Source: Desulfobacterales bacterium
GTDB lineage: Bacteria; Desulfobacterota; Desulfobacteria; Desulfobacterales; JAHEIW01
NCBI GenBank assembly: GCA_020353355.1
Contig: CP070694.1
Span: 4,497,646 to 4,530,905, forward strand
DNA length: 33,260 nucleotides
Reading direction: 5' to 3'
Positions within the stretch are counted from its first letter, which is position 1. Every line of letters starts with the position of its first letter. Positions 10,590-28,710 of the stretch are shown here, in pieces. A program made the translations under genes and the position numbers. The notes beneath the pieces are model-generated. The model did no database searches and was not told where the DNA came from. It saw only the letters and a list, made by a program, of their open reading frames with translations.

Positions 10590-11144
10590 ATTTTTTACCC
10601 ACAGAAACGCAGCGGATACATTAAAGAAAAAGGCCTCGGTTTCATTCATATCTATTACGGGCAAGGGGTCGGTAAAACCACCAGGGCTATTGGGCTGGCG
10701 ATGAGAGCCGCAGGCGATGGCCTGCAAGTTGATATTGTTCAGTTCATGAAGTCCGGGACTTCGGCAGAAGTGACTATTTTTAAAAAGATCCCCAACATCC
10801 GGTATTGGTGTCCCGGCAAACATCCGTTTATAATGACCAGCGGCCCAAAGGCGGTACACTATGAGCATGCCTCAAAAGCATTAAGCTTTGCATTTGAGGC
10901 CATTGAAAGAGGAACTCACCTGCTCATTTGCGACGAAATATTGGATACCATAATTTTCGATGTTCTTCAAAAAGAGCAAGTGCTGAAACTCATTGAAAAA
11001 TGTAAACATAACGTCGAGCTGGTTATGACCGGCATCAATGCGCCAGCAGTAATCATAGATAAGGCTGATTATGTGACGGAATTTGTGCAGGTAAAACACC
11101 CCTATTATCAGGGGGCCCGAGCCAGGAAGGGCATCGAATACTAA
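10590..11144 (+). CDS. cobO: CobO/BtuR-type cob(I)alamin adenosyltransferase
   Basis: About 184 residues if read from ATT 10590. The product runs FYPQKRSGYIKEKGLGFIHI, then the Walker A motif GQGVGKTT (about residues 25-32; usually GNGKGKTT), LAMRAAGDG, a VQFMKSG strand, LLICDEILD, and the C-terminal family signature MTGINAPAVIIDKADYVTE followed by VKHPYYQGARARKGIEY. The enzyme transfers the adenosyl group of ATP to cob(I)alamin in the cytoplasm. The first ATG in frame (10701) lies after Walker A, so it cannot be the true start. Either AUU is used or the start codon has mutated. It converges on the corrinoid methyl-transfer cluster, supporting a local cobamide role. The final block is well conserved, so the gene is probably functional. 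Confidence 0.8.
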   Translation: MFYPQKRSGYIKEKGLGFIHIYYGQGVGKTTRAIGLAMRAAGDGLQVDIVQFMKSGTSAEVTIFKKIPNIRYWCPGKHPFIMTSGPKAVHYEHASKALSFAFEAIERGTHLLICDEILDTIIFDVLQKEQVLKLIEKCKHNVELVMTGINAPAVIIDKADYVTEFVQVKHPYYQGARARKGIEY

Positions 11145-11145
11145 T

Positions 11146-11177
11146 AAAGCTCCTCGCCGCAAGCGGCGGGGAGCTTT
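11146..11177. terminator. bidirectional intrinsic terminator
   Basis: Two 15-base arms (11146-11160 and 11163-11177) pair with one G-U wobble, GC-rich at the centre, with only AA between them, and are followed by ATTTTT on the plus strand. It lies two bases past the CobO-like stop codon and overlaps the stop codon of the convergent RACo-like gene, so it can end both transcripts. Confidence 0.8.
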
Positions 11178-13236
11178 ATTTTTGATGCAAAATCTCCTCC
11201 GGCACAAGACCTTCAAGATGGGGAAACTCATCGGTCATATGCGGCAACTGCAGGGCTCCCATAAACTCTTTCTGGAAGTTTGGCTCCACGGTCAGTTCAA
11301 TATATTCCACATTGCGGGATACCCAGTTGGCCTCCACACGTTTTTCGCGATTCAACAGCGCCGCCCGGCATCCATCCCCGGCTGCATTGCCCACAGACAC
11401 TATTTTTTCGATCTCACAATCCGGAAATAAGCCCATGATCAGGGCTTTTTCTCGATCCACATGGGTGCCGAAAGCCCCGGCGATTTTGACCCTGTCCACC
11501 TTCTCAATGCCCATACGGTGTACCATGAGTTTGCAGCCGGCATAAAGCGCTCCCTTGGCAAGTTGGATCTGCCGCACATCCTTCTGGGTGATCACGATGT
11601 CTTTACCGATACTGGTCTCTTCCGCCCAGGCCAGCACAAACTCAGGCTGGCCGGTATCCGGGTTTTTACGGAAACGATCGGATTTATGCTCTTTTTTATT
11701 GAAAGCGCCGCTTTTGGTGACGATACCGGCCTTGTATAGTTCGGCCAACAAATCCAGGATACCGGATCCGCAAATTCCCTTGGCTTTCATGTCTTTGGGG
11801 TCTGAGTAACTACGCCAGGCATCTCTGCCGATAACCTTGTAATCCACCGCATGGGTTTGCGGATCGATCTTGATCCGCTCCATAGCTCCGGGTGCCGCCC
11901 GCATCCCGAAGGCCAGTTGAGCACCCTCCAAGGCTGGCCCGGTGGCACAGGAAGAAGAAATGAGCTTCTCCTTGTTGCCCAAAACCAGCTCGCCGTTGGT
12001 TCCAATATCGATAATTAGCTGAATTTCATCACTGTTGTAAGGTTCTTCAGCAATCAACACACCGACATTATCCGCTCCTACAAAACCTGCCTCGTTCGGC
12101 AATACAAACACATAGGATGAAGGGTTAATATGGATGCCCAGATCACGGGCTCTGATATCCAGGCTGTGGTGGATTACCGGAGGAAATGGGGCCAGGCCAA
12201 CATGTTCCGGATCGAGCTGAAGCAAAATATGATGCATAGCGGTGTTGCCACCAATAGTGATATCCTCGATATCTTCCCTGGCAAGCCTGCGGTAGATCTT
12301 GTCCTCCTCCGGCACTTCTACCCATTTTTCGGGCCCTTCTTCGCCCTTCTTCTTTTTCACCTTCTTTTTGGGCGGATAGGTTCCTTGAATGGCCTGATCG
12401 ATCAACGAGTTGAGCGCTTCAATGATGTCATTGTTCATCTTTTCAAGCCCCCCCTCGTTCATCATGTGATAGGTAATGCGACTCATTACATCTTCACCAT
12501 ATTTGCACTGGGGGTTCATCATGGAGACGGTGTCGATAACTTCCATGGTGGTAAGGTCACAAAAATAGGCAGCCACCGTTGTCGTCCCGATATCAATGGC
12601 GAGCCCATAACTAGTTTCGATTTTTCCCGGCCGCACGCGAATGAGTTCTTTGTCCATCCAAACGCTGACAGTGACTTTCCAATCTCCTTTTCGCAATGCA
12701 CCGGGCAGCTGCCGCAGGGCCTGGATGTCAATGCTTAGATCGCTGAGGTTGTATTTTTTTTGCAATTGGGCGCAAACCCGCTCAAAATCCCCGGTAGGCT
12801 CCTCAAATGACGGTTTTTCTGCTTCCACATAGTACAATTTGATCGCGGGATTGTGGTCAATGTGAATGTCGCGCGCTGCCTTGCTGACCACCTGTTTGCC
12901 GGCCCGGGACTCTTCCGGCACGAAAACCAGGAGATCTCCAAGGATTTTGGCAACGCAACCCAGCCGGTACCCCGCCGTCCTTTCTTCAGCATTAATGAAC
13001 TTTTCCTCTTCTTCCTGCCAGGGGCTCACATGAGATCGCTTGGAGTCGATGCCGTATTTTTCGAAAAATCCCTCTTCGATCCGAATCTTGCATTTACCGC
13101 AGACTTTCTTTTCCCCGCACAAGGCCTCGATATCTGCACCCAATCGGCGTGAGGCCTCGATGACGCTGATTTCTTTTGGCACCTCGCCTCTGCGGCCAGA
13201 GGGTTGAAAAATCACCCGTACATTTTTGTCTATCAT
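11176..13236 (-). CDS. RACo-like corrinoid reductive activator (2Fe-2S plus ASKHA ATPase, DUF4445)
   Basis: 686 residues. N-terminal plant-type ferredoxin domain with C40, C46, C49 and C94 as 2Fe-2S ligands; linker and middle domain to about 205; then an ASKHA actin-like domain beginning YGLAIDIGTTTVAAY (about 210-224) with further phosphate motifs TIGGNTAMHH and IDIGTNGELVL. Family members use ATP to drive electron transfer to inactive Co(II) corrinoid proteins, restoring Co(I); RACo of Carboxydothermus acts on CFeSP. An unusual Lys-rich segment (about 288-315, seven Lys in residues 290-297) sits within the ASKHA part. The start has AAGGAGAG upstream. It is the last gene of the leftward cluster, so its client could be CFeSP, the free corrinoid protein, or both. 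Confidence 0.9.
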   Translation of the reverse strand: MIDKNVRVIFQPSGRRGEVPKEISVIEASRRLGADIEALCGEKKVCGKCKIRIEEGFFEKYGIDSKRSHVSPWQEEEEKFINAEERTAGYRLGCVAKILGDLLVFVPEESRAGKQVVSKAARDIHIDHNPAIKLYYVEAEKPSFEEPTGDFERVCAQLQKKYNLSDLSIDIQALRQLPGALRKGDWKVTVSVWMDKELIRVRPGKIETSYGLAIDIGTTTVAAYFCDLTTMEVIDTVSMMNPQCKYGEDVMSRITYHMMNEGGLEKMNNDIIEALNSLIDQAIQGTYPPKKKVKKKKGEEGPEKWVEVPEEDKIYRRLAREDIEDITIGGNTAMHHILLQLDPEHVGLAPFPPVIHHSLDIRARDLGIHINPSSYVFVLPNEAGFVGADNVGVLIAEEPYNSDEIQLIIDIGTNGELVLGNKEKLISSSCATGPALEGAQLAFGMRAAPGAMERIKIDPQTHAVDYKVIGRDAWRSYSDPKDMKAKGICGSGILDLLAELYKAGIVTKSGAFNKKEHKSDRFRKNPDTGQPEFVLAWAEETSIGKDIVITQKDVRQIQLAKGALYAGCKLMVHRMGIEKVDRVKIAGAFGTHVDREKALIMGLFPDCEIEKIVSVGNAAGDGCRAALLNREKRVEANWVSRNVEYIELTVEPNFQKEFMGALQLPHMTDEFPHLEGLVPEEILHQK

Positions 13237-13304: not shown

Positions 13305-13976
13305 CTAGCCCTGCTCCTGCAATTTTCTCAACTGACTGATCATTTTAATGGCTTCCTGAACCGCATTGCCGGCCGATTCCGCGTAACCGTCTGCCCCAAA
13401 AAGATCTGCCACATCCTGCGTCACGGGGGCCCCGCCCAACATGATGGCCACATTCGGATTTTTTTCCTTGATCATCTCAATGACCTTCTTCATGCCGGTC
13501 ATGGTGGTGGTCATCATCGCCGACATGGCCACAATTTCGGAGTCGGTTTTCATCTGTTCTTCCACAAATTTCTCCAGCGGAACGTCCCGTCCAAGATCAT
13601 GAACCTCAAAACCGCCCACATCGAACATGAGTTTAATAATATTTTTACCGATGTCATGCACGTCTCCCTGCACCGTGCCGATAACCACCTGGCCCATTTT
13701 CTTTTGATCTTCCTTTTTTATGTGAGGTCTGAGAATATCCAGTCCGGCATACAGGGCGTCAGCACACATCAGCATCTCGGGAACGAAATATTCCTGTTTG
13801 TCATAGAGGTCTCCAACGGTTTCCATACCGGCCGCCAAACCGTTCATGATGGCCTCAAAGGCGTCCAATCCTTCATCCAGGGCGATCTGTGACCACTCCT
13901 TGGCCAGGTCTTCATCGTATTCCACAACGGCTTCGGCCAATTTGTCAAGAATCTCTTTTTTTCTTACGTCGTCCAT
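13305..13976 (-). CDS. corrinoid (B12-binding) methyl-carrier protein, MtaC/MtbC/MtvC-like
   Basis: 223 residues from the ATG at 13976, preceded by AAGGAGG; the longer frame to 14003 contains that ribosome site. N-terminal helical cap (about 1-90) followed by a Rossmann-like cobalamin domain: GTVQGDVHDIGKNI with D105-x-H107-x-x-G110, where His107 is the lower axial cobalt ligand, then SAMMTTTMTGMKKVIE and GGAPV. These proteins carry a methyl group between a substrate methyltransferase and a second methyltransferase. It follows the MtaA/CmuA-like gene after a palindromic element and precedes the RACo-like gene, the expected partners for methylation and reactivation. Confidence 0.92.
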   Translation of the reverse strand: MDDVRKKEILDKLAEAVVEYDEDLAKEWSQIALDEGLDAFEAIMNGLAAGMETVGDLYDKQEYFVPEMLMCADALYAGLDILRPHIKKEDQKKMGQVVIGTVQGDVHDIGKNIIKLMFDVGGFEVHDLGRDVPLEKFVEEQMKTDSEIVAMSAMMTTTMTGMKKVIEMIKEKNPNVAIMLGGAPVTQDVADLFGADGYAESAGNAVQEAIKMISQLRKLQEQG

Positions 13977-14037
13977 AGTGTCCTCCTTCCTGATCCAGCT
14001 CAACTGCCAACAAGCAGGATACAGTTGATTGAAGTCA

Positions 14038-14171
14038 GCTAAAGTGTCAAGTGAGCTAAAACGATTCCCGCTTGGAGCGGGATTAAGGAATCGCCGCCGG
14101 TTTGACCGAATTTTAAAATCGACAGCCCGCCTCAGGCGGATTAAGCATTTTAGGCACTTTCAACTTTAGGC
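14038..14171. repeat. MITE-like palindromic element
   Basis: Outer arms (about 14038-14063 and 14145-14171) are imperfect inverted repeats of a CTAAAGT...AAGTG..CTAAAA pattern. Inside are two perfect small hairpins, TCCCGC/GCGGGA (14066-14082) and CCGCCT-c-AGGCGG (14127-14139). There is no coding content. It separates the methyltransferase and corrinoid-protein genes. It could be a mobile repeat or an mRNA structure that sets the ratio of the two proteins. Confidence 0.55.
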
Positions 14172-14178
14172 ATTTTCA

Positions 14179-15228
14179 TTATTGTAATCTTCCTACTGCC
14201 GGTGAGGGTTTTTTACCGTATTCCCTTATCGTGCGCACATAAACCTCTACGTTTTCCCTTTTTACATCCGGCCAGAGATCACAGCCCGGCCATACCGCAT
14301 CCACGCCATCGTCGATATTTTTTTTGATCTCCGGCTCCACATCGGCGACGTCACCGGTAACCAGGGTGTCGTAGGGATTAAAATATCCAAAAAGCAGGAC
14401 ATCGTTCCCGATTTTTCTGCGCGTTTCAGCTATCGTATTTTTATGGTCCACACTGATCGCATCGGCACCGCATTCGTTCATCATCTCCACGATCAGATCG
14501 GTGGATCCGCAGATATGATTGACCGTGGGGCCCTTCAAGGAGTCAAATATCTTGGTGAGGTTCGGCTGGATAAGCGTCTTCCACATCCGCGGTGAAATGA
14601 GATCCGACCCTGAACCCATCTCGCGGATACTGATATAGTCCACGCCGAGTTCCTCATAATGTTGAGCGACCTTAATTACCAAATCAGTCATATCAGAAAG
14701 AAAGGCCTCAATTCTGTCCTTGTCTTTTTTAAGCCCCTTCAGCAGCAGGTCCAATTCATAGACCTGACCGGCCATGGTAAACGGCCCCAATAACCAGCCG
14801 CCAATGGCATATTTACCATCCCCGTATGCCTTGGCAATTTTAATGGCCTCATCCACCAACGGCATCCGGCCCCTCTCGAGGATATCGTCGGGGATTTTCA
14901 CATCGTCCAGGGAGTCCCATTTGTACGGAACAGTGGGATAGAGTATCTCCTCTGATTTCTCATACAGACTGATGCCGCGACCCATGGCCTCGGGTATGGT
15001 GCACATGTCATAGGGAATGATCAAGGCGTCAAAGCCGAACATCTCAGCTGTTTTGATCGCCGAACCGGCCAGATACTCGGCAGACGCATGGACCTGCGGG
15101 AAACGGATGCCCATCTCCTGGATGGCCTGGATGAGGACCATCCCCTGGCCGCTAAAAACGGGCATGACATCAATCGGTTCTTTTTTAAAAAGTTTAACTA
15201 CCCTTTCTTTTGGTTTCATTTCACTCAT
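14179..15228 (-). CDS. uroporphyrinogen decarboxylase-fold cobamide methyltransferase, MtaA/CmuA family
   Basis: 349 residues. A UroD-like TIM barrel, but not a true HemE: it has the zinc site of methylcobamide methyltransferases, H238-x-C240 in NHICGSTD and C316 in PGCDLWP, at almost the positions I remember for MtbA/MtaA. Family roles are methyl transfer between a zinc-bound thiol or another acceptor and a corrinoid protein; the family includes MtaA, MtbA, CmuA and, as I recall, the aryl O-demethylase component MtvB. The neighbouring corrinoid protein is its obvious partner. Bacteria of this kind lack coenzyme M methanogenesis, so a substrate-side methyltransferase such as an O-demethylase is a reasonable inference. 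The start has AGGGAG seven bases upstream. Confidence 0.88.
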   Translation of the reverse strand: MSEMKPKERVVKLFKKEPIDVMPVFSGQGMVLIQAIQEMGIRFPQVHASAEYLAGSAIKTAEMFGFDALIIPYDMCTIPEAMGRGISLYEKSEEILYPTVPYKWDSLDDVKIPDDILERGRMPLVDEAIKIAKAYGDGKYAIGGWLLGPFTMAGQVYELDLLLKGLKKDKDRIEAFLSDMTDLVIKVAQHYEELGVDYISIREMGSGSDLISPRMWKTLIQPNLTKIFDSLKGPTVNHICGSTDLIVEMMNECGADAISVDHKNTIAETRRKIGNDVLLFGYFNPYDTLVTGDVADVEPEIKKNIDDGVDAVWPGCDLWPDVKRENVEVYVRTIREYGKKPSPAVGRLQ

Positions 15229-15326: not shown

Positions 15327-15998
15327 TTATCCGGCTTCGGCTGAATCAGCATCTAAGCCTTGCGGCCGCAGCGCAGCAGTTGGGCAGACGGCCGCACATT
15401 TGCCGCAGGAGGGACATTTTTCCTCTACCATTGAGGCGTCTGCAGATAGGGTCAGCCTGGTTTTATTTCCCCGGTAGGCAAAGTCTAAGAGCGGTTCTCC
15501 ATGCAGCTTGCTGCACACCCAGACACATTTGCCGCAAATGATGCACTGGATGGGATCATAGGTGATGTAAGCATTGGTGGTGTCCAAGGGCAGAAACTCC
15601 GCGGGCAGCCCCCTGAAGTCTTCAGGCCGCTTGAGCTTGACTTTGACTTTGGCCGCAAGTTTTTGCAAATCACATTTTTTGTTCTTCCAGCACGCCCGGC
15701 AATCAAGGTTATGGTAGGCGATGAGCAATTTATAGGCAGTGCGGCGTATCCGCATGACTTCCGGGGTTTGGGTGTACACCTTCATGCCGTTTTGCACCGG
15801 CAGCGTACAGGCGGTCACCAAGCCCCGGCCCTCGACATGAACATAACACAGGCGGCATCCCCCGTAGGGGAGCTCGGCCTCAGGTATATAACAAAGGTTG
15901 GGGATGTAAATCTCGGACGCCAATGCGGCCTCTAAAATTTTGGTCCCCACGCTGGCTTTCACCGCTTTGTCGTCGATGGTTAATTCAACTTGCTCCAT
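15327..15998 (-). CDS. HoxU/NuoG-N-terminal-like iron-sulfur subunit of a diaphorase
   Basis: 223 residues. It has the full N-terminal module of NuoG/HoxU/HydA: 2Fe-2S ligands C36, C48, C51, C64; a His(Cys)3 4Fe-4S site H96, C100, C103, C109; then two ferredoxin-type 4Fe-4S sites, the first starting C152-x2-C155-x2-C158-x3-C162 and the second CPSCGKCAAVCP near the C-terminus. The protein ends there, without the molybdopterin or H-cluster domain found in formate dehydrogenase or FeFe-hydrogenase. It begins two bases after the NuoF-like stop codon, so the subunits are made together. It should carry electrons from the NuoF-like subunit to a partner not encoded next to it; CFeSP/RACo are candidates by context. 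Confidence 0.9.
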   Translation of the reverse strand: MEQVELTIDDKAVKASVGTKILEAALASEIYIPNLCYIPEAELPYGGCRLCYVHVEGRGLVTACTLPVQNGMKVYTQTPEVMRIRRTAYKLLIAYHNLDCRACWKNKKCDLQKLAAKVKVKLKRPEDFRGLPAEFLPLDTTNAYITYDPIQCIICGKCVWVCSKLHGEPLLDFAYRGNKTRLTLSADASMVEEKCPSCGKCAAVCPTAALRPQGLDADSAEAG

Positions 15999-16000
15999 GC

Positions 16001-17926
16001 TTATTCATCCTCGTCGGTCGGCGCCTCACCGGCAGGTATCTCACTGGGGGGCACTTCACTGATGGGTGAAACTTTGACCACCGCGTCATACTCCGGGGGA
16101 CAGACCTCCAAGCAATTCCCGCATTTGACGCATTTTTCTTGATCAACTACTTTATAGCGCTTGGGGTGTTCGACAATCGCTTCAGTAGGACAAACGACAA
16201 CACAATGTTCGCACCCTCGATAACATTTTTGCGGAATAATGTAATAGGCGATCAGGTCGCGACACACCAGTGCCGGGCAACGTTTTTCCTGAAGGTGTGC
16301 TTGATATTCTTCTTTAAAATATCGGATGGTGGTCAACACCGGATTAGGGGCCGACTTACCCAGTCCGCACAAGGATCCGGCGATGATGTCTTCACCCAAA
16401 GCAACGAGCTGCTCGATATCCTCGGATTTGCCCAGGCCGCTGACGATATCGTTCAGAATACTCAGCATTTGGGTGGTTCCCAGGCGGCACAGGACGCACT
16501 TGCCGCAGGATTCCTGCACGGTGAAGTCCAGAAAAAAACGGGCGGCGTCAACCATGCAGTTATCTTCGTCCATGATAATCATACCGCCGGAACCCATCAT
16601 TGCGCCCGCTTCCAGAAGAGAATCAAAGTCAATGGGGGTATCGAGAAACGATTCCGGCAAACACCCCCCCTCAGGTCCCCCAGTTTGCACCCCATTATAC
16701 ATTTTGCCGCCGATTACCCCCCCACCGATATCATCGACAACCGTCCGCAGGGAGGTGCCCATGGGCACCTCCACCAGCCCGACGTTTTGCACCTTGCCTG
16801 CCAATGCAAAAACGGCCGTGCCCTTGCTCCCCTCGGTGCCGATGTTCGCAAAGAATTCACTTCCCCGTTCAATGATCACTGGAATGTAAGCGAAGGTTTT
16901 GACGTTGTTGAGCTGAGTGGGTTTTTGGCGAAATCCCGATTCAATGGACTGGGGGGGTCTGACCCGCGGAAATCCTCTTTTGCCCTCGATTGAGTACATC
17001 AGGGCACTGGACTCACCGCAAATAAAAGCCCCTGCACCTTGAAACACCTCGATGTCGAAGTTAAAGCCGGTCTCCAAAATATCTTCGCCCAACAGCCCAA
17101 ATTGCTTTGCCTGTCCAATAGCCGTTTTGAGCCGTTGCACCGCAAGGGGATACTCCATCCGGGTATATATGTACCCTTGAGAAGATTTCAGTACAAAGGC
17201 ACAGATGATCATACCTTCCAAAACGGCATGCGGATCACTCTCAAGCACAATCCTGTCCATGAAAGCACCCGGGTCGCCTTCATCAGCGTTGCAAATTACA
17301 TACTTGGGCGTGTTGGCAGACTTCAGGCAAGCCTCCAGTTTTCTACCGGTGGGAAACCCGGCCCCGCCCCTTCCCCGCAACCCTGATTGCTTGATTTGCT
17401 CCACAATATCCGCCGGGTTCATTTTGAGGGCCTTGTTCAGGGCACTGTAACCGCCCAGAGCAATGTAGTGATTGATGTTTTGCGGATCGATGAAACCGCA
17501 ATTTCTAAGCAGCAATCGGAGTTCATGTTCAGACCGGGGCAATTCGGGAATATGGGGTGGGCTGCCATCGCCGCCCTCGAGGGTTCCCAACGCAATTTCC
17601 ATGCAGGGGTCATCCTCCTGCAGATACCCTTCAACCAACCGCGTAACCATTTCCGGGGTCACATTGTTGTAACAGATACGGGGATAATCCGGTTTACTGA
17701 TGATCACCAATGGTTCATAATTGCCATAGCCCACTGAACCGGTTGAAACGATCTTGGCCTCCAGATTTAACCTGGCAAGCTCTTTTTCAAACTCCGCAAC
17801 AACCTCCAGGGCGCCTGCGGCCCGGTCACTGGTTGCAGCACCGATCCGTATCACCGGGATTCCGTCCCCTTCCAGAGACTCCCATTGCGCGATGGCGTTC
17901 TGTCTGATTTCATCAAATGTCATCAT
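16001..17926 (-). CDS. NuoF/HoxF/HydB-like NADH-binding flavoprotein with C-terminal ferredoxin domain
   Basis: 641 residues. N-terminal thioredoxin-like region (about 1-120), then the Nqo1 core: GRGGAGFPTGRKLEAC (FMN/NADH Gly-rich loop), GAGAFICGESSALMYSIEG, and the 4Fe-4S motif ESCGKCVLCRLG with a later GSLCG Cys. The C-terminus adds CPALVC and a two-cluster ferredoxin (CYRGCEHCVVVCP, with one more residue than usual between the first two Cys, and CVKCGNCLEVCP), as in HydB of electron-bifurcating hydrogenases. It should oxidise NADH or reduce NAD. It is followed immediately by the HoxU-like subunit and preceded, after a 304-base gap with a palindromic element, by the NuoE-like subunit. The ATG has no clear Shine-Dalgarno sequence. 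Confidence 0.92.
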   Translation of the reverse strand: MMTFDEIRQNAIAQWESLEGDGIPVIRIGAATSDRAAGALEVVAEFEKELARLNLEAKIVSTGSVGYGNYEPLVIISKPDYPRICYNNVTPEMVTRLVEGYLQEDDPCMEIALGTLEGGDGSPPHIPELPRSEHELRLLLRNCGFIDPQNINHYIALGGYSALNKALKMNPADIVEQIKQSGLRGRGGAGFPTGRKLEACLKSANTPKYVICNADEGDPGAFMDRIVLESDPHAVLEGMIICAFVLKSSQGYIYTRMEYPLAVQRLKTAIGQAKQFGLLGEDILETGFNFDIEVFQGAGAFICGESSALMYSIEGKRGFPRVRPPQSIESGFRQKPTQLNNVKTFAYIPVIIERGSEFFANIGTEGSKGTAVFALAGKVQNVGLVEVPMGTSLRTVVDDIGGGVIGGKMYNGVQTGGPEGGCLPESFLDTPIDFDSLLEAGAMMGSGGMIIMDEDNCMVDAARFFLDFTVQESCGKCVLCRLGTTQMLSILNDIVSGLGKSEDIEQLVALGEDIIAGSLCGLGKSAPNPVLTTIRYFKEEYQAHLQEKRCPALVCRDLIAYYIIPQKCYRGCEHCVVVCPTEAIVEHPKRYKVVDQEKCVKCGNCLEVCPPEYDAVVKVSPISEVPPSEIPAGEAPTDEDE

Positions 17927-18230: not shown

Positions 18231-18752
18231 TTAATTATCTGCTTCCGCCTTGGCAGCTTCTGCTTCTTCCATTTTAAGGTTGACCAGTACTTCGTCTACT
18301 TTGGTAGAGGTCATCTTCGGAAAAATTTTTTCGCCGATGACCATCACCGGCGCCAATCCGCAGCAGCCAATACAGGCGACCCTGTCCAGACTGAACTGTT
18401 TATCCTCGGTAATTCCGCCCACTTCGACATCCAGCGCCCTTTCGAGGGCTTCCAGGACCAGCCCGCCGCCAACCATGTGACAGGCCGTCCCCATACACAT
18501 CTGGATGGGATGTTTCCCAAGGGGAATGTACCGAAAATGGTTATAAAACGAAGCCACACCATAAATCTGAACATCGGTCATTTCCAGATAAGCCCCGATC
18601 TCGCTGATTGCCAGCTTGGGAAGATAGCCAAAGGCCTCCTGCACCCTTTGCAGAATGGGAATAAGATGGCTTCTGTCTGGCTCAAATTGAACCAGGATTT
18701 GGGCTATTGCTGCTTTAATTTGCTGGACTTCCGCTGCGCTTTGCTCTTCCAT
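18231..18752 (-). CDS. NuoE/HoxE-like 2Fe-2S subunit of the diaphorase
   Basis: 173 residues from the ATG at 18752, which overlaps the acsC stop codon (TAATG) and indicates translational coupling; an in-frame ATG at 18764 would add four residues. The protein has the N-terminal helical bundle (FGYLPKLAISEIGAYLEM) and a thioredoxin-like domain with 2Fe-2S ligands C86, C91, C127 and C131 (CMGTAC and CIGCC). It ends in a short acidic Ala/Glu tail. It pairs with the NuoF-like flavoprotein as the NADH-oxidising head. The overlap with acsC is the strongest sign that this diaphorase works with the corrinoid iron-sulfur protein. Confidence 0.92.
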   Translation of the reverse strand: MEEQSAAEVQQIKAAIAQILVQFEPDRSHLIPILQRVQEAFGYLPKLAISEIGAYLEMTDVQIYGVASFYNHFRYIPLGKHPIQMCMGTACHMVGGGLVLEALERALDVEVGGITEDKQFSLDRVACIGCCGLAPVMVIGEKIFPKMTSTKVDEVLVNLKMEEAEAAKAEADN

Positions 18753-20101
18753 TATGCTTTCCATTGCTCAGATAGAAATTTCGGAATATCGCTTCCTTCC
18801 AGAGGACCCAGGATGATTTCCCAACCGGGAAGCTCTTCCTCCAACTCGGCCACTAGCTTCTTGGCCACGCCCGGAATGATAAGCTTTCTGTGTTTCACTT
18901 TGTCTGCCACACCGTATTTCTTAAAAAATTCAGCAATCGCCTCCCCGTTGAACTTGCCCGAGGTCCAGGCGGCCATGACTCCCAGCCCTTCGGTATTATT
19001 AATGCATAAATAAGCCGGCATATTGCCCTCCTCGATCGCCGCGGACACAATAAAATAATCCAGCGCATAATTGGTGGAGATCAGGACGGGGGAGTTTTCA
19101 TCAGGGTTGCCGATCGCGTATGCCTTTTCTTCGACGGTCATCGGTCTTCTGGGATCGCTGAAAATATTGAACCGAAGTACGAGGAGGGGCAAAAGAAAGT
19201 GTGCATTTGCTTGAGACCACACCACGATGCCGGCATATTTGGTCATGAGTGCAGCGGCTGCCAGTGTCTCCTGGAATCTATCCGGGTACATGAAGCAGGG
19301 AAAGGCAATGGTCGGATACCCAAGGGGCCTGAAGCCTTTTTTCAAAGCAGCCCTTCTAATGAGGGTTTGATCTCGAATACCTTCCAACATATTTTTAAAG
19401 CCGGGATCCAAAACCATGTCTTCGATTCCGGCATCTTTCAAATCCGATGTAACAGATACGACCGCATCGATGCTTTGCCCTTTGACGCCTGCTGCAACAC
19501 CAAGTTTTTTAAGTTTCGGAATGGCGACGTTCATATTCTCATTGGTTATGGGATAAACAAGTGGTTTTCTGTCAGCACACAGCGCGGCTGCGGAAAACAA
19601 GACATCCGTATCCTCACAGATCAAAATCAGTGCAGCTTCCGTGGTTTGATAGGCTTTTTTGACCAACGCCTGGAATTTGTCTTTATCGCCGGATTCAAAG
19701 CAAAGCGCCAGCAGATTGATCCTGAGCTTTTGTCCGATTCTTTCAAAATCAAATGTGTTGATGTGCTTTAGCTTTTCTTCGATTTCCGATTCGGCTCCCT
19801 TATCTGAGATCAGGATGGCGATGCCGGGTTCGTGAAAAAAGGTCTTCTCATGCCGGAACATGACTTGTTCTTCACCAATGGACAGTGTATTTTCACCCGT
19901 TCCGATGGTCACAAGCTTTATGGGAGGGGCCATGGCGGCCTCCAGTTGCGCCTTAACTTGCGGATCCAGATAAGGACAATCCTCAAGTTTAGCGCCCCCT
20001 GTGGCCAATTTCATGGCAAACGCAAAACAGGTTGCATAACCGCATTCTTTGCAGTTGGTTTTGGGCAACATTTTCATTATTTCCGCTCCCTTGAGCGCCA
20101 T
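18752..20101 (-). CDS. acsC: corrinoid iron-sulfur protein large subunit (CFeSP gamma)
   Basis: 449 residues, the usual length. The N-terminal 4Fe-4S domain has C17, C20, C25 and C42 (KTNCKECGYATCFAFAMK), followed by a TIM barrel and a C-terminal cobamide-binding domain (from about 330, including INNTEGLGVMAAWTSGKF). CFeSP accepts the methyl group from methyl-H4folate on its cobalt and passes it to acetyl-CoA synthase; its 4Fe-4S cluster is used for reductive reactivation. AGGAGG precedes the ATG. Lies 73 bases after acsD, a gap that contains a perfect TAGGGGC/GCCCCTA hairpin (20144-20160) without a T run. The downstream nuoE-like gene overlaps its stop codon. Confidence 0.95.
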   Translation of the reverse strand: MALKGAEIMKMLPKTNCKECGYATCFAFAMKLATGGAKLEDCPYLDPQVKAQLEAAMAPPIKLVTIGTGENTLSIGEEQVMFRHEKTFFHEPGIAILISDKGAESEIEEKLKHINTFDFERIGQKLRINLLALCFESGDKDKFQALVKKAYQTTEAALILICEDTDVLFSAAALCADRKPLVYPITNENMNVAIPKLKKLGVAAGVKGQSIDAVVSVTSDLKDAGIEDMVLDPGFKNMLEGIRDQTLIRRAALKKGFRPLGYPTIAFPCFMYPDRFQETLAAAALMTKYAGIVVWSQANAHFLLPLLVLRFNIFSDPRRPMTVEEKAYAIGNPDENSPVLISTNYALDYFIVSAAIEEGNMPAYLCINNTEGLGVMAAWTSGKFNGEAIAEFFKKYGVADKVKHRKLIIPGVAKKLVAELEEELPGWEIILGPLEGSDIPKFLSEQWKA

Positions 20102-20174: not shown

Positions 20175-21077
20175 TTAAACAACCATCTCTTTAATCAGCT
20201 TGAGTGCCTCCGGATGCCTGAGGATGAGGAGATTGGCTCCGGCCAAAATGAACGTGATACCGGTGATGGCCTCCCAGAGGATGCCTTGTTCTCTATTTTC
20301 CTTTGCCTCTTTGGTTCTCCAGCAATCTCCTCCGAAATCACAAAGGATGGGCATCTGCATCATTTTGTCTTTGTCAGCGAGGCCGAATTGCTTGATCTCT
20401 TCAATGATCGAAAATGTATATTCAAGTCCATAACCCAGGGCTGATGCCGTGGGATCAATCACAATCTTTTCCGGAGGGAAAAACTTGCAAAGGGCGATAT
20501 TCAATTCTTTGGTCAGATTGGCATCCATAGACGCCTGGGCCACGATGGCATGGCCGTGCTCCATTGCAGCTTTGGCAATCTCTTCATAGTTACCCTTTAC
20601 CAGAGGAGCCAGGAGTAAGTTTTTACCGGAGCATGCACGGGCGACTTGCGTTAACACCTGTGCGTCCTTCTCTTCCATATCTGTCCCCCACACGATCAGC
20701 GGGACATCCACGGCATCTGCCACTATTTTTGTAATCTCGGCCGCTTCTTCCGCTGATCCGTTCTTGCCCATGGGATCAGCGCTTAGCAGCCGAAGGCAAA
20801 GCATTTCGGCTCCGAATACCTCAACACATTTCTTGGCCCACTTGACCGGATCGGATACGACATCTTCAAATGGTTCCAATACCGACGGTGCCCAATTCTC
20901 CGGTTCTGTGTCCAGAATTTCCAATGCCAGTCCCGGTGGGTTCGGAAGTGAACCTTCAAAAAAATGGAACGGCAACGTGTTTTCTCCCCCTATTTTGAGG
21001 GCCTTTTCTCCGTGTCCCACAACGGTCTCTCTGATGTTTACTGAGATTTTCTCCAACGGCGGCTCATACTTCATCAT
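20175..21077 (-). CDS. acsD: corrinoid iron-sulfur protein small subunit (CFeSP delta, CdhD/AcsD)
   Basis: 300 residues. A TIM-barrel protein with the family blocks VGGENTLPFHFFEG-like (IGGENTLPFHFFEGSLPN here), PVKWAKKCVEVFGAEMLCL, VPLIVWGTDMEEKD, DPTASALGYGLEYTFS and PILCDFGGDCWR. It forms the heterodimer with AcsC that holds the cobamide at the interface. The start with two adjacent Met codons follows AAGGAGG. It is 12 bases after acsE, so the two are cotranscribed. Slightly shorter than the roughly 310-320 residues I recall for acetogen homologues. Confidence 0.95.
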   Translation of the reverse strand: MMKYEPPLEKISVNIRETVVGHGEKALKIGGENTLPFHFFEGSLPNPPGLALEILDTEPENWAPSVLEPFEDVVSDPVKWAKKCVEVFGAEMLCLRLLSADPMGKNGSAEEAAEITKIVADAVDVPLIVWGTDMEEKDAQVLTQVARACSGKNLLLAPLVKGNYEEIAKAAMEHGHAIVAQASMDANLTKELNIALCKFFPPEKIVIDPTASALGYGLEYTFSIIEEIKQFGLADKDKMMQMPILCDFGGDCWRTKEAKENREQGILWEAITGITFILAGANLLILRHPEALKLIKEMVV

Positions 21078-21089
21078 ATCTGCCTCCTT

Positions 21090-21968
21090 CTATACTTCTA
21101 ACCAGGAATGTGAATACAGAGACTTGCCCATCAGAACCTGAACCGTTTTTACATACTCAAGCTCTTTTTGAGGAAGCGCAGAGATATCCATATTCTCTTC
21201 ATCCATGGCACGATAAATGAGCTCAACCATCTCCGGCACCTCTCCCCGGATGAGACGAATAAGTTCCCGGTCAAAGCCACTGACAATGGCGGAATGCTGG
21301 CCATATCTTCCGATCATGACCAGGAAAGTGCGATTGAGCAGGCTTTTCAGTTCCTTGGGAGCACCATAGGATAAATTGGACAACCCGCAGGTAGACTTGG
21401 CCCCCGGTAGCAAATCCTGCAGCATCTGGATAAATTCAAGGTATGAGGTTACCTGGCGTTGATCAACGCCAATGGGCAGCAGCACAGGGTCCACCCAGAT
21501 ATTCTCATTGGCAATGCCCAATTCATTTGCAACGGCCGCCGACTCCATAATACTGGCTGCGCGTTCATCTGCATCAGAAGGCAATCCGGCATCGTTGATA
21601 ACGGAGAGGACCACGTCAGCCGAATATTTGGCTGCCAGCGGCAGCATGGTTTCCATGCTTTCTGTGGCTCCGGAAGCGGAGTTGAGGAGGGCCTTACTTT
21701 TGCAGAATTTAAGGCCTGCCTCCATGGCTAACGGATTGGTCGTATCCAAACACAGGGGTAGGTCGGTAACCTCTTGGACCGTATTGATGAGCCACTCCAT
21801 GGTCCCTTCAGGATCCTTTTTTACAGGCCCTACATTGACGTCCAAGTAGTCCATGCCATTTTTCGTCTGCGCAGCGACACATTGCTGGATCGGACCCGGT
21901 TCTCGCTCCTTTATCACCCGCGAGATCTCTCCGGACATAACATTTAAGTCTTCACCAATGAGAATCAT
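21090..21968 (-). CDS. acsE: 5-methyltetrahydrofolate:corrinoid iron-sulfur protein methyltransferase
   Basis: 292 residues, about 30 longer than the Moorella enzyme, mainly at the C-terminus. Pterin-binding TIM barrel: YLDVNVGP, PLCLDTTNP and GLSNLSYGAP (the Asn corresponds to the one that helps activate methyl-H4folate), with NRTFLVMI. It moves the methyl group from methyl-H4folate to CFeSP, or back in the oxidative direction. It is the first gene of the leftward acs cluster. GGAGAGG lies about seven bases before the ATG. A 269-base gap upstream contains direct and inverted repeats that could be regulatory. In the methyl-entry model it also links the free corrinoid route to folate. Confidence 0.93.
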   Translation of the reverse strand: MILIGEDLNVMSGEISRVIKEREPGPIQQCVAAQTKNGMDYLDVNVGPVKKDPEGTMEWLINTVQEVTDLPLCLDTTNPLAMEAGLKFCKSKALLNSASGATESMETMLPLAAKYSADVVLSVINDAGLPSDADERAASIMESAAVANELGIANENIWVDPVLLPIGVDQRQVTSYLEFIQMLQDLLPGAKSTCGLSNLSYGAPKELKSLLNRTFLVMIGRYGQHSAIVSGFDRELIRLIRGEVPEMVELIYRAMDEENMDISALPQKELEYVKTVQVLMGKSLYSHSWLEV

Positions 21969-23017: not shown

Positions 23018-24214
23018 ATGAAGAAAACATCATTTTGGCTTGGAATCCTGCTTGCGCTTATCTTGACCATCCCATCTGTGGTTGCCGCACAACAAAAGGT
23101 TCGCGGCGTCACCGATACCGAAGTTACGATCGGCTGGAGCACACCCCTCTCCGGCCCGGCGGCTCTCTGGGGAGTGACCGGACTGGGTGGCAAAGCATGG
23201 CTCGATTATATCAATGATCAGGGGGGCATCCACGGCCGCAAGATCAATGTGATTCTCAAGGATGACGGATACAATCCCGCCCGGGCAATGGCCAATCTTC
23301 AAGAGATGAAAAATGAAATCTTCGCGGTAACCGCCCTGCTGGGGACCGCGGTGGTCAATGCCTGCCGGGATTTTTTCCCGGAAAACAAAATGCCTCTGAT
23401 AAATGCCTACGGAAATACCCGCATGTTCGAGGATTACCCCAAGGATAAACTCCGCTATATTTTCGTTTCTTACCCGGATTACCGGGACGAAGCAGAGTTC
23501 CTGACGGCATGGGCCTTCAAGAACCTGGGAAGCAGGAAATTCGCTATCTTCTATCAAAATGACGATTACGGGAAACTCGGCTGGTTAGGTATGGCCAACG
23601 GAGTGGGGCAACTGTCCGGCGCCGAGACAGTCGCAGCGGTTCCCTATGAAGTCACCGAAAGGGCCCTCAGCGCCCATGCCCTCAAGCTCAGGGAGTCCGG
23701 AGCAGATACCCTTCTGCTGTACACGAGCCCGGTCCATGGTCCGCTGGTCCTCAAAGAAATGGCCAAAGTCGGGTATCGTCCCAAGGTGTTGGCCTCTTTT
23801 CCCCTGGGCGATCCTATCATGTACCAGATTGCCGGCGAGGTCTGGGAAGGAGTTTATCCCGCCGGACCGAACCTCGGTGGCATGCCGGGTGTAGACCCGG
23901 AGGCCGACCGGATTGCTGATATCCTTAAAAAATACAATCCCAAAATCGCCGGTAAGGAGTACCTGGGACTTTTCGGGGCTGTCAGCTCGATGTACCTGGT
24001 AGAAGGCCTCAAGCAGGCGGGACGAAATCTCACCCCCGAAACCATGATCCGGGGGATGGAATCCATCAAGAACTGGCAGTCTGAAGCAGGCGGCGCCAAA
24101 GTAACGTTCGGACCCAATCGCCATCATGGTGCCAACGGCTCTCGGTTGTACCGTGCACAGGGAGGAAAGCATATCCCCCAAACAGACTTCATCATGTACC
24201 AACCGAGGTTTTAA
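23018..24214 (+). CDS. branched-chain amino acid-type ABC transporter substrate-binding protein (LivJ-like)
   Basis: 398 residues. Signal peptide MKKTSFWLGILLALILTIPS with cleavage near VVAA, then the type I periplasmic binding fold: VTIGWSTPLSGPAALWG, YINDQGGIHGRKINVILKDD, YNPARAM, and FAIFYQNDDYGKLG. There is no lipobox Cys. Such proteins capture amino acids, but relatives also bind aromatic or aliphatic acids and urea. AAAGGAGG precedes the ATG. It is the first gene of a plus-strand operon whose fourth gene is an acyl-CoA ligase, which points to a carboxylic acid rather than an amino acid substrate (inference). Confidence 0.9.
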   Translation: MKKTSFWLGILLALILTIPSVVAAQQKVRGVTDTEVTIGWSTPLSGPAALWGVTGLGGKAWLDYINDQGGIHGRKINVILKDDGYNPARAMANLQEMKNEIFAVTALLGTAVVNACRDFFPENKMPLINAYGNTRMFEDYPKDKLRYIFVSYPDYRDEAEFLTAWAFKNLGSRKFAIFYQNDDYGKLGWLGMANGVGQLSGAETVAAVPYEVTERALSAHALKLRESGADTLLLYTSPVHGPLVLKEMAKVGYRPKVLASFPLGDPIMYQIAGEVWEGVYPAGPNLGGMPGVDPEADRIADILKKYNPKIAGKEYLGLFGAVSSMYLVEGLKQAGRNLTPETMIRGMESIKNWQSEAGGAKVTFGPNRHHGANGSRLYRAQGGKHIPQTDFIMYQPRF

Positions 24215-24217
24215 ATC

Positions 24218-24970
24218 GTGCCTTTGCTAGAAGTTGACGATCTATCTATCAGCTTCGGGGGCATTCAGGCCCTGGCAGAGGTAGACTTCCAGGTGGAAAA
24301 TGGGGAGATCCTCTCGGTGATCGGTCCCAACGGCTCGGGCAAGACCACCATGTTCAACTGTATCTCCGGTGTGTACCGTCCCGACGAGGGTCTCATCCGC
24401 TTTCGCGAAAAAAGTCTGCTCGGTCTATCGCCGGATTCGATCGCCCATAGAGGAGTCGCCCGCACGTTTCAGAATCTGCGTCTCTTTCTGCACATGACCG
24501 TTGTGGATAACCTGCTTCTGGGCCGACACATCAAGTTTCACAAAAACCTCATCCATGCCCTCCTCCGCCTGCGCCGCGAGGAAATCCGCCACCGCGAGGT
24601 AGTCGAGGAGATCATCGATTTTCTGGATCTTCAGGCCTATCGGCAGACCCGGGTGTCCGATTGCCCCTATGGCGTTCAAAAGCGAGTGGAGATGGGCCGC
24701 GCCCTGGCCATGGAACCCCATTTGCTCCTGCTGGACGAGCCCATTTCTGGACTGACCTCGGAGGAAAAGGAGGAGACGGCATACCGCATCAACGAAATCC
24801 GGGGCCGATACAAGACGTCCATCCTTCTGGTGGAACACGACCTCAGAATCGCTTCCAGGTTGGCGGACCGCATGATCGCCTTAGACTACGGAAAAAAGAT
24901 TGCCGAAGGCAGCCCGGAGGAGGTCCAGCGCACGCCTGAGGTAATCAAAGCCTATTTGGGCGAAGATTGA
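24218..24970 (+). CDS. ABC transporter ATP-binding protein, LivG type
   Basis: 250 residues starting at GTG, three bases after the binding-protein stop codon, with GAGG upstream. Walker A GPNGSGKTT, Q-loop RTFQNLRLF, signature region CPYGVQKRVEMGRAL (LivG proteins usually have a variant rather than LSGGQ), Walker B LLLLDEP, and the switch His in LLVEHDLRI. The C-terminal PEVIKAYLGE is typical of LivG. It energises uptake together with the LivF-type ATPase. Confidence 0.92.
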   Translation: MPLLEVDDLSISFGGIQALAEVDFQVENGEILSVIGPNGSGKTTMFNCISGVYRPDEGLIRFREKSLLGLSPDSIAHRGVARTFQNLRLFLHMTVVDNLLLGRHIKFHKNLIHALLRLRREEIRHREVVEEIIDFLDLQAYRQTRVSDCPYGVQKRVEMGRALAMEPHLLLLDEPISGLTSEEKEETAYRINEIRGRYKTSILLVEHDLRIASRLADRMIALDYGKKIAEGSPEEVQRTPEVIKAYLGED

Positions 24971-25044
24971 AAGGACAACGCGGAAAGGGGAATTCGGAAT
25001 GCGGAATAAAGAATTCAATGGTACCAGATTCCGTAATGTGAAAG

Positions 25045-25821
25045 ATGGAAACGTTACTCAAAATCGCCAACATTGAGACCCTTTATTATGACAGGATCTA
25101 CGCCCTGCATGGCCTCTCGCTGGAGGTGAAGGCAGGGGAGATCTTTGCAGTCCTGGGGCCCAATGGTGCGGGCAAGACCACGTTGCTCAAAACCATTGCC
25201 GGCCTGCTCAAAGACCAACCCAAAAAGGGCGCCATCCACTTCATGGGCAAACGCATTCACCGCTTGGCCCCGGAGCGGGTCGCGCGGCTGGGAATCGTCT
25301 ATGTTCCGGAAGATCGCGGACTGTTCCGAGAACTCAGCGTTAAGGAAAACCTGGACCTGGGATGCTGGGGACGATCGGATTCCGGCATCACGGACGACGT
25401 TGAATTCATCTACCAGCTGTTTCCCATTCTTAAGAACCGCGCATATCAGCAGGCCGAGACCCTCTCCGGCGGGGAACAGCAAATGCTGGCCATGGCGCGT
25501 GCCATGCTGCGGCGACCGAAACTGCTCATGCTGGATGAACCATCCCTGGGGTTGGCCCCCCGCGTGGGGCGTGAGGTATATGAAGCCCTCTCCAAGATCA
25601 GTCAGGCGGGCACCACCATTCTGCTGGTTGAGCAAAATGCCAAGATGGCCCTGCGCATCGCAAATTTCGGCTATATCATGGAATCCGGGAGGATCGTGCT
25701 GGAGGGCACCGCCCAGGAACTTCAAGAAAATCAAGATGTACAGGAGCTGTACCTGGGGGTGGGCGGTGATACGGTATCGCCCAAGGGATGGCGTTTATAC
25801 AAGAAAAGGAGAACATGGTAA
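25045..25821 (+). CDS. ABC transporter ATP-binding protein, LivF type
   Basis: 258 residues. Walker A GPNGAGKTT, VYVPEDRGLFRELSVKENL (LivF-like Q-loop region), canonical signature LSGGEQQMLAMARAM, Walker B LLMLDEPSLGLAP and switch LLVEQNAKMAL. After the usual end (LYLG) about 18 basic residues follow (KGWRLYKKRRTW). The 74-base gap from livG contains repeated GGAAT units and the ATG has only a weak ribosome site. The stop codon overlaps the start of the acyl-CoA ligase gene (TAATG), coupling their translation. Confidence 0.92.
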   Translation: METLLKIANIETLYYDRIYALHGLSLEVKAGEIFAVLGPNGAGKTTLLKTIAGLLKDQPKKGAIHFMGKRIHRLAPERVARLGIVYVPEDRGLFRELSVKENLDLGCWGRSDSGITDDVEFIYQLFPILKNRAYQQAETLSGGEQQMLAMARAMLRRPKLLMLDEPSLGLAPRVGREVYEALSKISQAGTTILLVEQNAKMALRIANFGYIMESGRIVLEGTAQELQENQDVQELYLGVGGDTVSPKGWRLYKKRRTW

Positions 25822-27620: not shown

Positions 27621-27625
27621 CCCGT

Positions 27626-28606
27626 ATGGATCTCATTGAAAATTATAAACAAGAACTACAGCTCATCCGCAAGCCGTGGACCCGGGTTTGGGTCGGTGCT
27701 TTCGTCCTCCTCCTCCTGTTGCTGCCCTGGTTTGCCCCGGAATATATCATCTACACGTCAACGCTCATTTTCATTTACGCCGTCGGGGTTCAGGGACAGA
27801 ATTTGCTGATCGGATACACGGGCCAGATCTCCTTTGGGCAGGCAGGCTTTCTGGCCATCGGTGCCTTCACCTTCGGGCACCTGAGTCGCTTCGGCATCCC
27901 TTGGCCCATCGGCCTTTTGGGTGCCGGTCTGGCGGCAGGTTTGTTCGGCATTTTGGTGGGCTTTCCTTCTCTGCGCCTGAAGGGCCCGTATTTGGCTATT
28001 GCGACCCTCGGCTTCGGCATTGCCGTCTATCAGATTTTCGCCAATTCCGAGTTGCTATCTGGCGGCCGCATGGGGCTTGTCATTCAAAAACTGGAGCCCA
28101 TCTTTGGCTTATCTCGCCTAAATTTTAATTATTATTTTTACTTTTTAATCGCGCTGGTGTTTACACTGGCCACTTACAATATCATCTCTTCTTATGTGGG
28201 GCGCGCCTTTATCGCCATCCGTGACAATGATATCGCGGCCGAGGTCATCGGGGTGAATCTTACCCGCTACAAGCTGCTGGCCTTTGCCGTCAGTTCCTTT
28301 TACACCGGAATTCAGGGCGGGCTTTACGGTCTCCTCCTAGGGTACTTGGAGCCCAACATGTTCACCTTTATGGAATCCATCACCCTTTTCGTGGCCGTCA
28401 TCATCGGGGGATTAGCCTCCGTGGAAGGCTCGATCATGGGGGCGGCGTTCGTGATCCTCGTCCCCCAGTTTTTCAGTGAATTCAAGGAAATGGTTCCCGT
28501 GGTCTTTGGGGTAACCATACTGCTGGTGTTGATCTTTGAGCCCCTTGGGCTTTACGGCAGATGGTTTAAGATGAGACTTTATTTTCGAAACTGGCCCTTG
28601 AGGTGA
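27626..28606 (+). CDS. ABC transporter permease, LivM type
   Basis: 326 residues with eight or more hydrophobic helices. Family motifs: QNLLIGYTGQISFGQAGFLAIGA, GLFGILVGFPSLRLKGPYLAI, ATLGFG, and the EAA-like loop AFIAIRDNDIAAEVIGVNLTRYK. It forms the membrane channel with the LivH-type permease. It starts five bases after the acyl-CoA ligase stop codon. Confidence 0.92.
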   Translation: MDLIENYKQELQLIRKPWTRVWVGAFVLLLLLLPWFAPEYIIYTSTLIFIYAVGVQGQNLLIGYTGQISFGQAGFLAIGAFTFGHLSRFGIPWPIGLLGAGLAAGLFGILVGFPSLRLKGPYLAIATLGFGIAVYQIFANSELLSGGRMGLVIQKLEPIFGLSRLNFNYYFYFLIALVFTLATYNIISSYVGRAFIAIRDNDIAAEVIGVNLTRYKLLAFAVSSFYTGIQGGLYGLLLGYLEPNMFTFMESITLFVAVIIGGLASVEGSIMGAAFVILVPQFFSEFKEMVPVVFGVTILLVLIFEPLGLYGRWFKMRLYFRNWPLR

Positions 28607-28710
28607 GATTTCTTCATTTTGTTAATGATCAATTGAGGTAGCAGCTAGTCAATGAAATTGTTCTCATCTCTCCCTTTTAAAGGGGCGGGTTGGGGTGGAG
28701 GTGAATAAAT

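Follow-up and report, generated by a model that had tools for sequence, protein, structure and literature searches.

A folate-linked UroD methyltransferase cassette in Desulfobacterota that may demethylate methyl-sulfur or methyl-selenium compounds

Which protein acts on the substrate when a UroD-fold methyltransferase and a corrinoid protein are encoded together without a separate substrate methyltransferase? This question is raised by a stretch of 33,260 nucleotides from a Desulfobacterales genome (assembly GCA_020353355.1, contig CP070694.1, positions 4,497,646 to 4,530,905), here called the window, where such a pair lies at positions 13305 to 15228. The original prediction, made from the sequence of the window, was that the UroD protein itself may attack a methyl ether or a methylthio compound, with AcsE serving the methyl-tetrahydrofolate (methyl-H4folate) side. 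Here, we describe the pair and its activase as a conserved cassette in which two folate-side enzymes alternate. We propose, with a probability of roughly 0.52, that this cassette is related to the mlp gene clusters, is wired to folate and removes the methyl group from a methyl-sulfur or methyl-selenium compound, and that, in the lineage of the window, it is joined by an orphan second set of methyltransferase (MeTr) and corrinoid iron-sulfur protein (CFeSP).

A conserved cassette in Desulfobacterota

The window sits in the single-contig genome of a sediment bacterium, which is 5.3 Mb long and scored 84.69% complete. The cassette consists of three genes:

11176..13236, minus strand: RACo/AcsV-type reductive activase of corrinoid proteins, 686 amino acids (aa); model NF040756, best PDB match RACo 3zyy
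13305..13976, minus strand: corrinoid protein of the MttC/MtaC type, with D-x-H107-x-x-G; alternative start TTG at 14003 (232 aa)
14179..15228, minus strand: UroD-fold MtaA/Mlp-type methyltransferase, 349 aa, with Zn ligands H238, C240 and C316; predicted substrate-side enzyme

Of 395 Desulfobacterota genomes covered by a protein search (E <= 1e-60), 22 encode the cassette UroD protein, counting the window's own, as do 17 of the 327 better ones. A pattern-based scan of another, partly overlapping collection yielded 14 cassette loci. The UroD relatives are 57-92% identical and mostly have an adjoining corrinoid gene, which is far above chance. The nearest named record holds a UroD protein 92% identical to that of the window over its readable part, and the close relatives are Desulfobacterales and other Desulfobacterota metagenome-assembled genomes.

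Thirty-five loci were read with profiles (the window, L026-L039 and L079-L098), and the counts that follow refer to loci and not to genomes. L032 and L085, at 66,963 bases each, probably represent the same contig, three pairs share a genome (L031/L037, L080/L081 and L089/L090), and other overlaps may exist. The corrinoid protein was found in 32 of these loci and an AcsV-type activase in 31; the loci that lack one or the other are at contig edges, second copies or partly unreadable. The gene order UroD, corrinoid protein, activase holds in most loci and differs in some distant members (L093, L094, L096 and L098). The UroD protein, the corrinoid protein and the activase are a conserved cassette in Desulfobacterota. 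Two families of small genes, DUF6951 and DUF2284, also recur in cassette loci, usually directly behind the activase. No member of either family was found in the window.

Two folate-side enzymes alternate beside the cassette

A recurrent family of 24 open reading frames (ORFs), 20 of which adjoin the UroD gene on its upstream side, was identified as MtrH from one scanned member (PF02007, 172 bits; NF002142, 288.7 bits against a cut-off of 287). By family profile, MtrH occurs in 27 of the 35 loci, one of which holds only a piece of the gene at the end of its contig. A row of AcsE, AcsD, AcsC, NuoE, NuoF and HoxU takes its place in four loci (the window, L026, L039 and L079). In the window, this row continues on the minus strand into the UroD, corrinoid protein and activase genes, with gaps of -13 to 304 bases between genes, and is followed by a GC-rich hairpin. 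Its first six members, listed by coordinate, are:

15327..15998, minus strand: HoxU or N-terminal [FeFe]-hydrogenase-like Fe-S subunit, 223 aa, matching mainly the N-terminal part of hydrogenase models
16001..17926, minus strand: NuoF-like NADH-binding subunit with a C-terminal ferredoxin domain, by profile match
18231..18764, minus strand: NuoE-like subunit, by profile match
18752..20101, minus strand: AcsC/CdhE, CFeSP large subunit, with an N-terminal Cys motif (553 bits against a cut-off of 306); paralogue of the main-operon copy
20175..21077, minus strand: AcsD/CdhD, small subunit of CFeSP; paralogous to its counterpart in the main operon for carbon monoxide dehydrogenase/acetyl-CoA synthase (CODH/ACS)
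21090..21968, minus strand: AcsE-type methyl-H4folate:corrinoid methyltransferase, the genome's second full-length AcsE, which holds the place of MtrH

A fifth AcsE-type locus (L038) begins inside HoxU at a contig edge, with only HoxU seen, which brings the total to 5 of 35. No locus contains both MtrH and the AcsE module. Three contain neither (L029, L089 and L093), and all three of their genomes encode MtrH elsewhere. The association also holds at the genome level, where MtrH is found in 19 of 22 cassette genomes versus none of 17 genomes without the cassette. The three cassette genomes that lack MtrH are the window's own, its relative G276, which is also of the AcsE type, and one that is 76% complete. 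Seven further cassette genomes follow suit: MtrH is present in the four that are not of the AcsE type and absent from the three that are.

MtrH and AcsE belong to families whose members work between a methyl-pterin and a corrinoid. Because these folate-side enzymes alternate in the cassette and never occur together, their distribution supports the predicted layout, in which AcsE serves folate in the window and the UroD protein acts at the opposite, substrate end. The exchange of MtrH for AcsE is in effect a natural experiment that reveals which component faces folate.

The UroD protein and its place in the superfamily

The zinc site H238-x-C240...C316 named in the prediction is intact as read in the sequence, and a His-Cys-Cys site is present in 33 of 34 cassette rows, the remaining row being unreadable at one ligand. 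According to the main text of PMC10418091 (Kountz & Balskus), His-Cys-Cys ligands mark the S-methyltransferases of the superfamily, while O-methyltransferases lose one or both Cys. Pfam assigns the window's protein to URO-D (205 bits), and its best PDB match is the MtaA of the methanogen M. mazei (1.4e-46), to which it is 30-31% identical; CdmB, of the O-demethylase branch, was not matched in this search up to E 0.01. A profile of 28 sequences matched MtaA at 5.5e-83 and CdmB at 6.2e-6, the latter ranked below HemE structures. Four members of this profile are from outside the cassettes: one paralogue from the same genome, one Acetoanaerobium protein and two second UroD proteins, whose grouping with MtaA favours the MtaA match. 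The search is able to detect the CdmB branch, as another UroD protein of the same genome (L108) matches CdmB best (1.1e-21). A structure model of the UroD protein (mean predicted local distance difference test score 86.8) has MtaA (4ay8/4ay7) as its best fold, with a template modelling (TM) score of 0.88.

In a phylogenetic tree, the cassette UroD proteins form one clade of 34 tips with an ultrafast bootstrap (UFBoot) of 100, beside the MtaA branch. Also in that branch are two of the four Acetoanaerobium proteins and the second UroD genes that lie close to some of the cassettes. The named references in the tree are limited to a single methanogen MtaA, a single HemE and two Clostridia records, and do not include MtbA, MtsA, CmuA, MtvB or OdmB; CdmB and CdmB-like proteins from the window's genome represent the O-demethylase branch in place of MtvB and OdmB. 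A fused UroD-corrinoid protein from the same genome was trimmed to 420 residues for this tree. Constrained topologies were compared with the approximately unbiased (AU) test on 42 taxa, after dropping 19 cassette rows of the 61-taxon set, and forcing the cassette beside the MtaA branch cost 2.7 log units (AU p 0.19).

The His-Cys-Cys site, the best database match and the tree together favour assignment of the UroD protein to the MtaA/Mlp branch of S/Se-methyltransferases, although the tree does not settle the branch. The two halves of the predicted substrate therefore part ways: zinc site, PDB matches and tree favour a methylthio compound over a methyl ether, and the His-Cys-Cys site, MtaA as best match, a weak or absent CdmB match and a position beside MtaA point away from the suggested kinship to O-demethylases of the MtvB/OdmB type, although the topology tests reject it narrowly at best. 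It had also been reasoned that placement with thiol-side, MtaA-type enzymes would speak against a substrate role. By sequence the protein partly falls there, whereas its gene neighbourhood keeps it on the substrate side.

There are further UroD genes. The fused protein (L111:6350-8227) of the window's genome has 625 aa and His-Asp-Cys as its zinc-site residues, and its layout resembles that of CmuA. A second UroD gene is found near some cassettes (L080:13747-14784, and similar genes in L082, L083, L084, L086, L087, L088 and L093), and these group with methanogen MtaA in the tree; the one that was scanned exceeds the cut-off of the methylcobalamin:coenzyme M methyltransferase model PRK06252 (312 versus 244 bits).

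The corrinoid protein and its activase

The D-x-H107-x-x-G cobalamin motif, likewise part of the prediction, is intact. The His of its D-V-H-D-I-G is residue 107 counted from the ATG at 13976, which is a more likely start than the TTG at 14003 because GGAGG precedes it. Pfam recognises both B12-binding domains (94 and 78 bits), and the protein scores 211 bits with TIGR02370 (pyl_corrinoid) against a cut-off of 215.3. Among the proteins compared from outside the cassettes, one from an Acetoanaerobium cluster matches it best (45%); paralogues in its own genome reach 42% at most. We infer that this Acetoanaerobium record is an mlp cluster because it holds four UroD genes, a corrinoid protein and an activase.

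The activase scores 455 bits with the AcsV model NF040756, under the cut-off of 800, and matches RACo 3zyy in the PDB at 3.5e-105. The activase is also kept at MtrH-type loci where the stretch read holds no CFeSP gene, so the cassette corrinoid protein is probably what it mainly serves.

A second AcsE and CFeSP set

The genome has a complete acs operon (activase, AcsD, CODH, acetyl-CoA synthase, AcsC and AcsE) near 3.48-3.49 Mb. The AcsE, AcsD and AcsC of the window are 46%, 43% and 47% identical to this main-operon set and are thus paralogues of it. They are closer to a set from another genome (G299), to which they are 58%, 52% and 53% identical, with 40% for NuoE and 56% for NuoF. Cassette loci aside, no closer relatives of these AcsE, AcsD and AcsC proteins were found. 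As they are closer to this set than to the main operon of their own genome, the module in the window looks, by sequence comparison, like part of an archaeal-type CODH/ACS operon minus the CODH/ACS genes. The G299 locus itself (L201, 77-10599) is a bacterial copy of such an operon, with CdhA, CdhB, CdhC and DUF166 next to AcsE, AcsD, AcsC and NuoE/NuoF.

The window's AcsE aligns to MeTr 1f6y at 1.2e-54 and keeps the equivalents of D75, N96, D160 and N199, which we take to be the functional positions of that enzyme. Locus L039 has the same AcsE module (68-82% identical), yet its UroD protein is only 57% identical to that of the window and belongs to another subclade. This suggests that modules may have been exchanged.

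A proposed pathway and its alternatives

In the pathway that we propose, the UroD protein would hold a small methylated compound by its sulfur or selenium atom at the His-Cys-Cys zinc and pass the methyl group to the cob(I)alamin of the corrinoid protein. Oxidised corrinoid protein would be reactivated by the AcsV/RACo protein. The methyl group would then go to tetrahydrofolate, by MtrH in most relatives and by AcsE in the window, where AcsE might act directly or receive the methyl group through the neighbouring orphan CFeSP (AcsC/AcsD). The resulting methyl-H4folate could be oxidised or used in the Wood-Ljungdahl pathway, and NuoEF-HoxU may perhaps supply NADH-linked electrons for corrinoid activation. 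The protein families, the motifs, the conserved cassette, the alternation of MtrH and AcsE and the second CFeSP/MeTr set were computed directly; zinc binding, the sulfur or selenium substrate, the demethylating direction, the CFeSP relay and the electron role of NuoEF-HoxU are what the model adds to them. SelB exceeds its cut-off in 37 of 39 genomes and is therefore uninformative about selenium. A further-reaching version, tentative and in our judgement more probably wrong than right, is that MtrH was replaced in the window lineage by a MeTr, CFeSP and NADH-dehydrogenase module from an archaeal-type CODH/ACS operon, that the methyl group there passes two corrinoid proteins in series, and that folate-wired mlp clusters form a route of S/Se demethylation into the Wood-Ljungdahl pathway in some Desulfobacterota.

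Several points weigh against the proposed pathway. The UroD protein remains below the MtaA/CmuA cut-offs (TIGR01463, 217.6 of 235.4 bits; PRK06252, 231.3 of 244 bits), and its position beside the MtaA branch has a modest UFBoot of 85. Forcing the cassette beside CdmB-like proteins is rejected narrowly (22 log units, AU p 0.045, Shimodaira-Hasegawa (SH) p 0.055), and forcing it beside all five non-His-Cys-Cys UroD proteins of the same genome is not rejected (18.5 log units, AU p 0.063, SH p 0.104); one of these five (L109) has MtaA and not CdmB as its best PDB match (4.9e-11). We know of no AcsE that uses a corrinoid protein of this type and of no precedent for the CFeSP relay. Near five cassette loci (L080, L082, L083, L094 and L096) are genes for a flavin-dependent (FAD) oxidase and an Fe-S protein (GlcD/GlcF-like), and near four of them (L080, L082, L094 and L096) there is also a Liv-type ATP-binding cassette (ABC) transporter. 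Such neighbours would suit an O-substrate such as a methylated hydroxy acid or a methoxy acid; these assignments come from Pfam on L080 and from similarity at the other loci.

The last two observations bear on whether the UroD protein attacks a methyl ether, such as a methoxylated aromatic or a methoxy acid, in the manner of MtvB or OdmB. UroD-fold O-demethylases do exist (PMC13222342), and the window has a Liv-type operon of its own about 1 kb upstream of acsE. The zinc site is nevertheless His-Cys-Cys, neither carboxylate-containing nor absent, CdmB is matched weakly or not at all compared with MtaA, and the two constrained placements above stand at AU p 0.045 and 0.063, which makes an O-demethylase improbable. 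We consider it similarly improbable that the UroD protein is a thiol-side enzyme that receives its methyl group from a substrate methyltransferase encoded elsewhere, for instance one of the genome's 18 MttB-family proteins. With 18 MTTB loci and 10 B12-binding_2 proteins, including that of the cassette, cross-talk is conceivable. However, by coordinates about 310 kb separate the UroD gene from the nearest MTTB locus, and the cassette's recurrent partner works on the folate side, so that the opposite end falls to the UroD protein. As had been predicted, no gene of the MttB, MtaB or MtmB type was found among the 28 window ORFs scanned, which are part of the window's ORFs; genome-wide searches did not extend to MtaB and MtmB. 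Nor was MttB found among the scanned cassette neighbours, which comprised one member each of 14 recurrent families and six other ORFs and so do not include every neighbour. Two neighbour families (f15 and f16) had the right size for a hidden MttB and were identified instead as the FAD-oxidase and Fe-S proteins. Among the genome's MTTB loci (L148-L165), a single in-frame TAG occurs in four, a TGA in one and a TAA in another; the TAG codons could be pyrrolysine codons.

The direction of transfer might also be the reverse, from methyl-H4folate through AcsE (or MtrH) and the corrinoid protein to a thiol on the UroD zinc, such as homocysteine, in a split methionine synthase, or sulfide. A His-Cys-Cys zinc site and kinship to MtaA are typical of thiol methylation, and the window's genome has no match to PF01717 (MetE) or to a MesB-like query, its only PF02574 proteins being two short ones (frames of 294 and 344 aa). 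At first sight cassette genomes in general seemed to miss methionine synthase, with PF02574 in 6 of 22 versus 6 of 17 other genomes and PF01717 in 2 of 22, both weak, versus 4 of 17. This was countered by the MesB-like query, which matches 21 of 22 cassette genomes and 16 of 17 others, so that a replacement would be needless in these 21; the sole miss among the cassette genomes is that of the window, which is incomplete as noted. The query itself is weakly identified (PF01717, 22.9 bits; PRK00957, 34.8 bits against a cut-off of 258; in the PDB only spurious repeat proteins). The 21 matches weaken a split methionine synthase, which is still conceivable for the window's genome, and presence in 22 of 395 genomes is a scattered spread for a biosynthetic step. 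Taken as a whole, reverse use is the strongest of the alternatives but unlikely, and demethylation of a methyl-sulfur or methyl-selenium compound is the reading that we prefer.

Four MetH-like proteins of about 880 aa (L198:5657-8287, L200:398-3037, L199:1002-3632 and L205:1773-4457) carry UroD where MetH has its homocysteine domain. They combine UroD, pterin-binding and B12-binding domains, as found by Pfam on two and by similarity for the other two, and in each case a RACo-type gene comes next. Six genomes of two families hold frames of 889-903 aa that suggest the same protein; five of the six have no PF02574 match.

Relation to known systems

The closest described systems are the type 1 mlp gene clusters, which combine Mlp (an MtaA-like UroD protein), a corrinoid protein and a Ram/RACE activase, and which include at least Mlp2 and Mlp3 (PMC10418091). 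The cassette shares with them this core, the His-Cys-Cys zinc site and an anaerobic setting. It differs in having, in the window, one UroD gene instead of Mlp2 plus Mlp3, in a clade of its own among sequences that included no labelled Mlp2 or Mlp3 reference; none of the sequences of the two Clostridia records compared falls in this clade. A further difference is its attached folate-side methyltransferase, MtrH or AcsE: the first three mlp clusters examined lack a folate methyltransferase, and the roles proposed for MtaA-like (Mlp) enzymes, selenium recycling and methionine salvage, come without a folate partner in the clusters (PMC10418091). The words 'Desulfo', 'MtrH' and 'AcsE' are absent from the main text of that paper in version 4, and version 3 counts one 'Desulfobacterota'. 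No publication title describing the cassette was found, and absence at the level of titles is no proof of novelty. The core of Mlp, corrinoid protein and RACE is of the same kind as in the published mlp clusters; what sets the cassette apart is its link to folate, its one UroD clade and the exchange of MtrH and AcsE.

With MtaA, MtbA and MtsA the UroD protein has in common the fold, the zinc ligands and the sequence identity given above. It differs in falling under the curated cut-offs (MtaA_Meth, 220 of 400 bits; MtbA, 141 of 600 bits) and in its folate-side companion. The MtvB, OdmB and CdmB systems are similar in their parts, namely a UroD-fold methyltransferase I, a corrinoid protein, a methyltransferase II of the AcsE kind (MtvA, CdmA) and an activating enzyme; they differ in zinc site and probably in UroD branch. 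Compared with the Wood-Ljungdahl AcsE/CFeSP and the archaeal-type operons for acetyl-CoA decarbonylase/synthase (ACDS), the AcsE, AcsD and AcsC of the window are true homologues that have no adjacent CODH or acetyl-CoA synthase gene and are tied to a methyltransferase cassette. To our knowledge, enzymes of methyl-sulfur demethylation are poorly known in Desulfobacterota. If our proposal is true, it links Mlp enzymes to one-carbon oxidation in this phylum and offers concrete candidates for anaerobic methyl-sulfur demethylation outside methanogens.

Other features of the window

Just past the activase gene lies a probable operon end:

11148..11175, minus strand: GC-rich inverted repeat followed by T, found by eye; the terminator scan did not include it

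Scans for sigma-70 sites and terminators gave numbers barely above those of shuffled sequences (19 versus 16.9 and 19 versus 16.2). Convergent to the cassette is an ORF of 147 aa (10701-11144, plus strand), which clusters with the BtuR/CobO adenosyltransferase of L039 and has no N-terminal P-loop region. Divergent from the acs row is the Liv-type transporter operon (23018-29592, plus strand), which encloses an AMP-binding, acyl-CoA ligase-like gene. The window also encodes a copper/zinc superoxide dismutase (30015-30605, plus strand), alongside an anaerobic pathway in the same genome.

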